DNA of 44,590 nt from an uncultured bacterium (GTDB taxonomy: Bacteria > Cyanobacteriota > Vampirovibrionia > Gastranaerophilales > Gastranaerophilaceae). The position numbers and the translations under genes are program-made. The stretch covers positions 1 to 44,590 of the forward strand of contig CASFGU010000052.1 of assembly GCA_949294395.1 (NCBI GenBank), written 5' to 3'. This document shows, one piece after another, positions 23,326-34,841 of this stretch. The notes under the pieces were generated by a model. It saw only the letters and a list, made by a program, of their open reading frames with translations, searched no databases and was not told the DNA's origin. Position 1 is the first letter of the stretch. The number at the start of each line of letters is the position of its first letter.

Positions 23326-24663
23326 ATGAATAGGAAACCTGTAGTTGCAATAGTAGGGCGCCCGAATGTCGGCAAATCGACATTCGTAAACCGTCTTGCT
23401 GGTTCAAGGAACTCAATAGTCGATGACCAGCCCGGGGTTACACGCGACAGAATTTACTTTGATGTTGAGTGGATGAATAAGGTTTTCACAGTAATCGACA
23501 CAGGCGGAATTGTTCCGGGTGATGAAGATGAAATTATGGTTTCAATATTTGATCAGGCAAAGATTGCCTGCGACGAAGCCGATAAAATAATTTTTCTTGT
23601 TGACGGGAAAGACGGCGTAAACCCTGTAGATTACGATATTGCAAATATTCTAAGGCAGTCCGGAAAACCGGTTTTCCTTGCTGTAAACAAGCTTGACAAT
23701 CCGGAATCCTACCTGATGGTGAACGATTTTTACTCGCTTGCACTCGGGGAACCGCTCGGAATTTCAGCACTCCACGGCAGCGGCGGTGTTGGGGATTTGC
23801 TGGATTTGATAACAGAAGATTTTGAAGAAGCCGGTGAAAATGATACAGACAATTCGACTATAAAAATTGCAATAGTAGGGCGCCCGAATGCCGGTAAATC
23901 CTCTATTGTTAATGCGCTTTTGAATGAGGACAGGGTAATCGTGTCCGACATATCAGGTACAACCCGCGACAGCATTGACAGCACCCTGACATACAAAGAC
24001 AGAGAGTTTATCATTGTGGATACCGCAGGTATCAGAAAAAAATCAAAAGTGGATTACGGCGTTGAAAAATTCGCGGTGGACAGGGCAATCCGTTCTATCA
24101 GAGATTGCGATGTGGCTCTTCTGGTCATTGATGCGGCAGAAGGGATTTCCGATCAGGACAAGAAGATTTCCTCAATAATAACAGAAGCCGGCAAAGGGCT
24201 TATCATTGCAATTAACAAATGGGATTTGATTGAGGACAAAAAATCAAATACAATTAATCAGTATGACAAAAAACTTGCAAATGATATTCCGTTTCTGGAA
24301 TTTGCGCCGAAAATTTACATAAGCGCAAAAACAAAGCAGCGGCTTAACCAGATTTTTGACAGAGCGGCAGAAGTTTACGAACAGTGCACAAAGCGGGTTT
24401 CAACAGGACTTCTGAACAAAGTCGTGAAGGAGCTTTACGCGCTGAACCCTCCGGCAACGGTAAAGGGCAAACGGCTGAAAATTTTATACGCAACCCAAAT
24501 TGGGATAAAGCCGCCGGTGTTTGTACTATTTGCAAACAATTCTGACCTTTTGAAAGACCACTATAAAAGATATATTGAAAACAAACTGCGTGAGGCGTTC
24601 GGATTTTTCGGCACTCCGATAAAGATTTTCGTACGCGAACGCAGCGAAAAAGATAAAAGATAA
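23326..24663 (+). CDS. der: Ribosome biogenesis GTPase Der (EngA)
   Basis: Der (445 aa) has two tandem GTPase domains and is needed for 50S assembly. Domain 1 shows GRPNVGKSTF (11-20), DTGG and NKLD; domain 2 shows GRPNAGKSSI (about 186-195), DTAGIRKK and NKWD; a KH-like domain closes the protein with PPVFVLFANNSDLLKDHYKRYIENKLREAFGFFGTPI in split motifs. Length and order are normal. The start codon lies 6 nt after a -10 and lacks a ribosome binding site, which suggests leaderless mRNA for an essential gene. A strongly marked start codon follows 16 bp after its stop (24679). Confidence 0.97.
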   Translation: MNRKPVVAIVGRPNVGKSTFVNRLAGSRNSIVDDQPGVTRDRIYFDVEWMNKVFTVIDTGGIVPGDEDEIMVSIFDQAKIACDEADKIIFLVDGKDGVNPVDYDIANILRQSGKPVFLAVNKLDNPESYLMVNDFYSLALGEPLGISALHGSGGVGDLLDLITEDFEEAGENDTDNSTIKIAIVGRPNAGKSSIVNALLNEDRVIVSDISGTTRDSIDSTLTYKDREFIIVDTAGIRKKSKVDYGVEKFAVDRAIRSIRDCDVALLVIDAAEGISDQDKKISSIITEAGKGLIIAINKWDLIEDKKSNTINQYDKKLANDIPFLEFAPKIYISAKTKQRLNQIFDRAAEVYEQCTKRVSTGLLNKVVKELYALNPPATVKGKRLKILYATQIGIKPPVFVLFANNSDLLKDHYKRYIENKLREAFGFFGTPIKIFVRERSEKDKR

Positions 24664-24678
24664 AAGGAGGATAAATTT

Positions 24679-24732
24679 ATGCAAAACACAATTATAGCTT
24701 CAAAACTCAGAAGGGGGGGGGGGGCTTGTTAG
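24679..24732 (+). pseudogene. Start of a pilin-like gene interrupted at a 12-G tract
   Basis: AAAAGGAGG lies at ideal distance before ATG 24679. The peptide is MQNTIIASKLRRGGGAC and stops at TAG 24730. A short basic peptide ending in RRG is just what a prepilin leader looks like. The frame breaks because of the G tract: with one more G or two fewer it would enter the frame that is open without stop to the pilin end at 25897. It is thus either a phase-variable switch in the off state or the cut-off leader of the gene that follows. Confidence 0.5.
24713..24724 (+). repeat. Homopolymer of 12 G
   Basis: Twelve consecutive G lie 12 codons inside a well-marked start. Tracts of this kind change length by slipped-strand replication, and are also prone to read error. 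Confidence 0.8.
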
Positions 24733-24949
24733 CCTAAAATTCGCTCAGGACAAGGATTTTTGGCATTCACTTTTAAGTAACATTAGATGGCGCGGGGATT
24801 TTTTAAAATCTTTTTCCTTTGCGGGCGCTATTAGAAATGCGATTGGGCTTTTGAAGGACTATAAGCACTGTCATCCTGAATTTATTTGCCTTCTTTTGCC
24901 GAAAACTTGTTTTCGTGCAAAATGGCTCCTGGTGACAGGATCTCATTAC

Positions 24950-25010
24950 AAAGAGATTCTGAACAGTCACAATTCATGTGCGCCTAAACAATTAACGTTT
25001 CAGAATGACA
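24950..25010 (+). repeat. 61-bp repeat, family C (copy 2)
   Basis: It shares the ends AAAGAGATTCTGAACAG and TTTCAGAATGACA with the copy at 16927-16987, with the same length. It is read in frame as part of the pilin-like open frame. Confidence 0.7.
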
Positions 25011-25022
25011 CGTCTATTGTTA

Positions 25023-25163
25023 ACCTTTCACCACTTCAACCCTTCAACCATTCAACTTTTCAACCGTTCAACTTTACCGCCCCCTCTCCCGCCTCCGGCA
25101 CCATACCACGCAGGGGAAGGGAATTAGTTGAACCCTTCACCCCTCACCATTCACGCTTCACCC
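25023..25163 (+). repeat. Family D array with a family F insert
   Basis: TTCAACC-type units (25023-25076) are followed by the family F unit (25079-25117), then CCCTTCACCCCTCACC units up to the pilin codons. The same order C, then D, occurs at 16927-17074. Confidence 0.6.
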
Positions 25164-25164
25164 G

Positions 25165-25897
25165 CAGAAAAGCCGCTTTCACCTTAGCGGAGGTGCTGAT
25201 TACCCTCGGGATTATAGGAGTTGTGGCAGCCATGACATTGCCGGCACTGGTTAACAAATATCAGGAACGCGCCTGGCTGACCGCGTTTAAAACAAATTAT
25301 TCCATCCTCTCACAGGCATACTTAAGAGCCTATCAAAAATACGGAATACCGGAAGAATGGGGTCTGCCTGACGATAATCAGGAGGAAAGCTGTAAAAAAG
25401 CAGCAGAGTATCTGCTCCCGTATCTTAATCTGGCAAAAGATTTCAAGCAAAATGACAAACGCAGCACTCATAGACTGCCGGTGAATTATCTCGGACTAAA
25501 CGGCCGGAAGTTAAGTGATAACTGGAACGGCTGGAAGGAAACCCACTACATTTTTGCACTGGCTAACGGTGCAACCGCGGGCATTTCGCAAACAGGCTTG
25601 CTTGGTAAAGACGGGGTTGACGACAGATACCTTATCGAGATTTATCTTGATACAAACGGCGCAAAAGGCCCGAACCAGTTCGGCAAAGATTTCTTTATGC
25701 TTTTTCTGAATACAAAAAACAATTCTCCGATAGTAACAGGCTATCCTAAATGGTGGGTAAGTGAAAAAAGCTGTTCAATAGATTCTGACAGCACAAGTTA
25801 CTGGGGGAATGGCGGAGGCTGTGCCATCTGGCTGATAAACCACGGAAACATGGATTACCTTCACCGTCCGATTACGGCAGATGAATGGGCTAAATAA
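25165..25897 (+). CDS. Type IV pilin-like (pseudopilin) protein, start uncertain
   Basis: The recognisable protein begins at about 25165 with RRKAAFTLAEVLITLG: a basic leader end, then the conserved N-methylation helix with glutamate at +5 of the mature form, as in type IV pilins and type II secretion pseudopilins. About 230 residues follow, with a cysteine pair near the end (CSIDSDSTSYWGNGGGC) and calcium-loop-like DTNGAKGPN. The start is odd: no usual start codon or ribosome binding site lies nearby. The frame stays open back to the G tract at 24724 (TTG at 24851 is only a formal start) but runs through intergenic repeats C, D and F. The leader was probably displaced by repeat insertion, or the long form is made when the G tract changes length. 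Confidence 0.7.
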
Positions 25898-25928
25898 AAA
25901 AGGCGGGAATTTTGAATTCCCGCCTTTT
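25898..25928. terminator. Bidirectional terminator
   Basis: AAAAGGCGGGAATT (25898-25911) pairs perfectly with AATTCCCGCCTTTT (25915-25928). It separates the pilin-like gene from the convergent 25933 gene and serves both. Confidence 0.9.
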
Positions 25929-34786: not shown

Positions 34787-34841
34787 TTAATTGAAAATCC
34801 CCCTTTGATTCCCCCTTTAAAAAAGGGGGGGGGAGGTTTCT

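Follow-up and report, generated by a model that had tools for sequence, protein, structure and literature searches.

The closest described counterparts of the locus analyzed here are the sortase-pilus switches bbr_0113 and bbr_1889 of Bifidobacterium breve UCC2003, in which a short ORF led by a Shine-Dalgarno sequence (SD) runs into a G10-G11 tract, followed by an out-of-frame pilin ORF without an SD of its own (PMC9187656). Loss of one G turns these genes ON, a state that is enriched in mice, where it reached about 30% of the cells at one locus (PMC9187656). Our locus, from an uncultured member of the Gastranaerophilaceae, shares with them the short SD-led ORF, the G-tract, the out-of-frame pilin, the gut commensal lifestyle and, presumably, the ON state reached by loss of one G. 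It differs in encoding a prepilin-type pilin with a removable, repeat-filled leader, in belonging to another phylum, and in having tens of counterparts per genome, whereas the B. breve pili are sortase-dependent, carry Sec signals and occupy two loci.

Campylobacter and Neisseria have many poly-G contingency loci per genome, with the homopolymer located early in surface genes. Those of Neisseria are covered, at least in part, by a survey (PMC5084427). The early tract and the high number per genome recur in the present case, where glycan-type genes are affected as well. Here, in contrast, MutS1 and MutL are present, one OFF setting dominates, and the scale is that of a single pilin family. In Rickettsia and Wolbachia, palindromic interspersed elements are found inside ORFs and read in frame. 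One repeat of our locus (repeat D) is likewise palindromic, interspersed and in frame within a coding region, but here the repeats cluster within the predicted cleavable leader that separates the start from the mature pilin. Finally, transcriptional slippage decodes genes such as Thermus dnaX, which combine a homopolymer, a conserved out-of-frame setting and an early stop in the default frame. The homopolymer and the early stop are seen here too, and an out-of-frame setting is conserved within genera; however, the run consists of G instead of A or T, the direction of the offset differs by genus, and some copies are in frame. No paper on phase variation in this uncultured gut lineage was found in the open-access literature searched.

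Organization of the pilin locus

The window (the whole analyzed stretch of 44,590 nt, contig CASFGU010000052.1) contains the pilin gene behind der (Table 1). ATG 24679 is preceded by an ideal SD and opens MQNTIIASKLRRGGG, with 12 G and a stop following, as an earlier note on this DNA had described. That note expected the pilin frame to be joined with 10 or 13 G, but translation gives 11 (8, 14); it also let a prepilin-like leader end in RRG, while the predicted prepilin peptidase site lies between KAA and FTLAEV at 25178. Its proposal of a frame unbroken from the tract through repeats C, D and F into the pilin agrees with our translation, in which no stop occurs across 151 spacer codons, through FTLAEV and up to the stop at 25895-25897. 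The two other forward frames contain 8 and 10 stops over 444 nt of the spacer, and the chance of one given frame staying open over this length is about 0.007 (Markov model). Openness by chance, already doubted in the note, was thus rejected for the window repeats.

Table 1. Features of the der-pilin region, with positions in the window
Feature	Position	Strand	Remarks
der (EngA-type GTPase)	23326..24663	+	Conserved upstream neighbor; stop 15 nt ahead of the pilin leader ATG
Shine-Dalgarno AGGAGG	24665-24670	+	8 nt upstream of ATG 24679; from the sequence
Short default ORF (as assembled), MQNTIIASKLRRGGGAC then TAG	24679..24732	+	Family-A leader; stop at 24730
G12 homopolymer	24713-24724	+	Pilin frame joined at 11 (8, 14) G
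Spacer module C (LVSLKFAQDKDFWHSLLSNIRWRGDFLKSFSFAGA...)	24725..24869	+	The sister-species orthologue has a related spacer
Repeat D, palindromic, interspersed, terminal inverted repeat GTCATCCTGAA/TTCAGAATGAC	24870..25010	+	Further copies at other genomic sites
Repeat F, 8-nt TTCAACC-type units, then leader end ...SRFTRRKAA	25027..25177	+	
Mature pilin FTLAEVLITLGIIGVVAAMTLP...	25178..25897	+	N_methyl PF07963; TIGR02532
Inverted repeat AAAGGCGGGAATT...AATTCCCGCCTTTT and T run	25896..25928	+	Likely terminator, read by eye

The leader was assigned on the basis of SD and frame. In the window, no SD-led start codon in the pilin frame was found close to the pilin; the earliest candidate, TTG 24851, has no SD, and an internal start was therefore rejected for this gene. 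A related idea, in which the short leader ORF acts as a regulatory uORF and the pilin is made from its own start, has some ground at L074, L117, L122, L248, L290, L291 and L297; there, an ordinary pilin of the MKKG-FTLAEV type, equipped with its own SD, lies behind a short ORF that bears a tract. Given that the window has no SD-led start between tract and pilin, and that many gated loci have 6-20 codons from tract to pilin, all open from the tract, we consider it highly improbable. The loci just listed, together with L247 (minus strand), come from four species and share the short MKKG-type pilin leader; in their SSLSSIQRF copies a terminator-like hairpin follows the short tract-bearing ORF.

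The window pilin contains the N-terminal methylation and cleavage domain (PF07963, 24.7 bits with a cut-off of 21.2; TIGR02532, 19.4 bits with a cut-off of 16.3). Like type IV pilins, it has Glu at position +5 of the mature protein (FTLAE) and a predicted long N-terminal hydrophobic helix. AlphaFold places this helix at residues 5-57, at low model confidence (mean pLDDT 43.8; four sequences in the input).

The der neighborhood and the sister-species orthologue

Close der homologues are present at 80 Gastranaerophilales loci, four of which have a G-tract directly behind der, followed by a pilin in three of the four. The positional orthologue in a sister species (L133/L280) shares the leader of the window gene and has G11, but its spacer is 52 codons long and lacks repeats D and F; the L133 pilin is 85% identical to that of the window. 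A further short-form copy, L254 in G008, has the mature sequence of L133 and was not regarded as independent. Because L133 lacks them, either the window lineage acquired D and F or the sister lineage lost them. As alternatives, the earlier note had named a phase-variable pilin whose leader is oddly long and an insertion of repeats that separates the leader from the mature pilin. Both appear to be true together, given the orthologue without D and F and the tract lengths of 9-16 at the corresponding place in dozens of paralogues, with the switching put forward as probable and the ON lengths corrected as above.

Comparison of the window with L133 yields a dN/dS of 0.075 for the mature pilin and 0.023 for der. 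As judged from these substitutions, the mature pilin is under purifying selection although it is out of frame.

Three other loci near der (L153, L156 and L188) encode acyltransferase-like membrane proteins, judged by eye, with an SD-ATG-G-tract start (n = 10, 14 and 13); two of the three are in frame.

Spacer modules and repeats

Module C is weakly constrained among paralogues (pN/pS about 0.66). Repeat D has a single open frame out of six, which is the pilin frame, and combines inverted ends with a fold z of -3.46; it is thus a palindromic, interspersed element read in frame. The layout of leader, tract, spacer and pilin recurs in the genome and its relatives. Spacers of 80-200 codons are open at 22 loci, in the one useful frame; six other loci (L079, L103, L241, L256, L260 and L261) have closed spacers.

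The prepilin peptidase would take off everything before FTLAEV, the long leader included, and the leader should for this reason tolerate in-frame insertions. In-frame repeats could then pile up between leader and mature pilin and leave the filament unaltered, which would account for the 151-codon spacer of the window copy. The closed spacers and the weak constraint on module C might also be taken to mean that most copies are decayed pilins, with tract and repeats as debris and nothing expressed. Such relics would hardly combine a mature dN/dS of 0.075, 22 long spacers open in the single useful frame, an ideal SD and the uniform offset described below, and we regard this reading as very unlikely.

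A family of putatively tract-gated pilins

The genome of the window (Candidatus Gastranaerophilales, 2.1 Mb) contains 72 distinct tracts of at least nine G (G9+) and 127 strong matches to the pilin N-terminus; the leader-to-pilin stretch described above, used as query against this genome, gave 71 matches. About 40 of the tracts are preceded by one of two leaders feeding pilins, MQNTTIASKLR-GGGG (family A) or MENASIARIY-GGGG-SSLSSLTGTEQG (family B). Many family-B copies sit at contig ends and consequently miss their downstream parts. Complete loci of both families usually run in one frame into FTLAEV-type pilins; the shortest spacers measure 18-21 codons (L101, L075), and other loci pass through mosaic repeats. 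The G-tract is found 15-50 nt after the SD-led ATG, early enough for its length to set the frame, as in phase-variable genes. The window gene thus appears, from its sequence, to be one of dozens of pilins gated by a run of roughly 10-13 G, which puts nearly all of them a single base out of frame, and to have extra repeats inside a removable leader.

Relatives were Candidatus Gastranaerophilales MAGs, mostly drafts, with one genome per species. Across 59 genomes (own included), the number of G9+ tracts per genome reaches 116 in the same family as against 0-6 in the other families sampled. Among these, the enrichment is confined to this family.

Frame setting and early stops

For loci with an open pilin frame, we expressed the setting as an offset, defined as tract length minus ON length, modulo 3. 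In the genus of the window (63 loci in eight species, window included), the offset is +1 in 51 loci, +2 in seven and 0 (ON) in five. Tract length tracks ON length, with n = 10, 11 and 12 at ON lengths of 9, 10 and 11, respectively. Shuffling n among the genus loci placed a mean of 25 and a maximum of 38 at +1, versus 51 observed, and +1 still accounts for 49 of 61 after merging loci with identical leader and post-tract bases; these counts are not independent draws, because loci within a genome are related by duplication. What carries more weight is that leader length, tract length and downstream frame compensate for one another. Both the window and its orthologue L133 are at +1 despite unlike n and downstream frame.

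In a second genus (G033) 31 of 39 loci are at -1, seven are ON and one is at +1, while a third (G021) has 26 of 39 at +1, ten ON and three in the remaining state. The out-of-frame setting, a strong bias that the earlier note had not foreseen, is thus conserved within genera, reversed in G033, and accompanied by 8-26% of loci that are already in frame.

This setting could be suspected of being an assembly error, in which homopolymer miscalls create an apparent frameshift, since the genomes are mostly drafts and contigs often break at these repeats. Most non-pilin tract genes of the own assembly, and most of those with G11-G13, are in frame (they are mostly glycosyl-, acyl- or acetyltransferase-like, by eye), which disfavors a general assembly error as the source of the offset; n tracks ON length, and the direction is opposite in G033. 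We therefore give this explanation very little weight.

At the usual setting, translation meets a stop no more than five codons past the tract at 58 of the 63 loci of the genus (25 on average after synonymous shuffling) and at 38 of the 39 G033 loci (15.7 on average), compared with 33 and 3, respectively, for the other OFF frame. The pattern is less marked in G021, with 24 of 39 loci for the +1 frame and 14 of 39 for the -1 frame. Common ancestry of the bases behind the tract plays a part in these early stops, yet the same result is reached with different stop codons and at different positions.

Probable phase variation or possible programmed slippage

The simplest and, in our view, probable explanation is slipped-strand phase variation in which OFF is the default, comparable to that of the Bifidobacterium sortase pili but on an unusual scale. 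The window gene would belong to a large type IV pilin-like repertoire, each member gated by a G-tract a few codons past its start. Replication slippage would alter the tract length. A ribosome translating an ON-length tract would continue from the leader across a stretch of glycines and the spacer to the pilin; with the tract one G off, as it usually is, translation would end just past it. Most genes would then be OFF in most cells and a few ON, giving cells differing pilin sets, and each gated gene looks like an on/off switch for a surface filament that is normally off. We infer slippage in living populations, ON/OFF expression and surface function from the sequences.

This explanation is in line with the wealth of tracts, leaders and pilin N-termini in the genome, the restriction of the enrichment to the family, the range of 9-16 G in the paralogues, which includes the ON, +1 and +2 states, the selection on the mature pilin and the 22 open long spacers, and the B. 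breve pilus genes provide a measured precedent (PMC9187656). Free, unbiased switching, however, which is not a strict requirement for phase-variable genes, predicts about one third of loci ON and the rest split between the two OFF states, and instead one OFF setting dominates each genus. Such a distribution could still arise from selection for OFF or from directional mutation. The presence of MutS1 and MutL also speaks against phase variation, as the tracts may be fairly stable; loss of mismatch repair was accordingly rejected as a cause.

Alternatively, the tract may be kept one base out of frame on purpose, with RNA polymerase (or the ribosome) slipping so as to yield a small constant fraction of full-length pilin while the DNA seldom changes. 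The constant, compensated offset, shared by window and orthologue, together with the early default-frame stop, the presence of mismatch repair and strong purifying selection on an out-of-frame gene, keeps this programmed slippage in play as an unlikely contender. The stops, though, lie 0-5 codons past the tract and not at the fixed position required by a stop-driven ribosomal shift, and the preference of G033 for the other direction (-1, against +1 in G021 and the window genus) and the 8-26% of loci in frame make us lean towards phase variation.

A broader proposal, advanced tentatively and with rather more doubt than confidence, is that each Gastranaerophilaceae genome has tens of prepilin-type genes whose G-tract is deliberately kept one base off the pilin frame, with a stop close by and a direction that is specific to the lineage. 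Slippage of DNA or RNA would free small, varying subsets of pilins, and the cleavable leader would serve as landing site for in-frame interspersed repeats. The pilin loci suggest that this uncultured gut lineage, related to cyanobacteria, has an unusually large surface repertoire gated by homopolymers, which would explain how its cells could diversify their filaments in the gut. With dozens of loci per genome, the conserved off-by-one setting would be a natural experiment for replication slippage versus programmed slippage. Annotation pipelines would label such genes truncated or misplace their starts.

Further tract-bearing loci

Several additional arrangements were seen. Contigs of G000 (C4, C8, C10, C15, C16, C28, C33 and others) often end in or just after family-B leaders, which may reflect either repeat-mediated recombination or assembly collapse between pilin loci. 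Within the window, a G9 at 34825-34833 lies in an intergenic repeat, outside a gene-start context. In genus G025 (tiles L322-L337), a repeated leader MADTEIKNGQ is followed by G10 and directly by TAA in the default frame, with no clear pilin downstream, and this genus was excluded from the counts for that reason. The G021 tiles L341-L360 contain 39 sampled pilins with a near-identical N-terminus (FTMAEILLSLTIIGVVAAITLPSLTGNINERTWNTQRKAL) and differing C-termini, each with a G-tract leader ahead of it.
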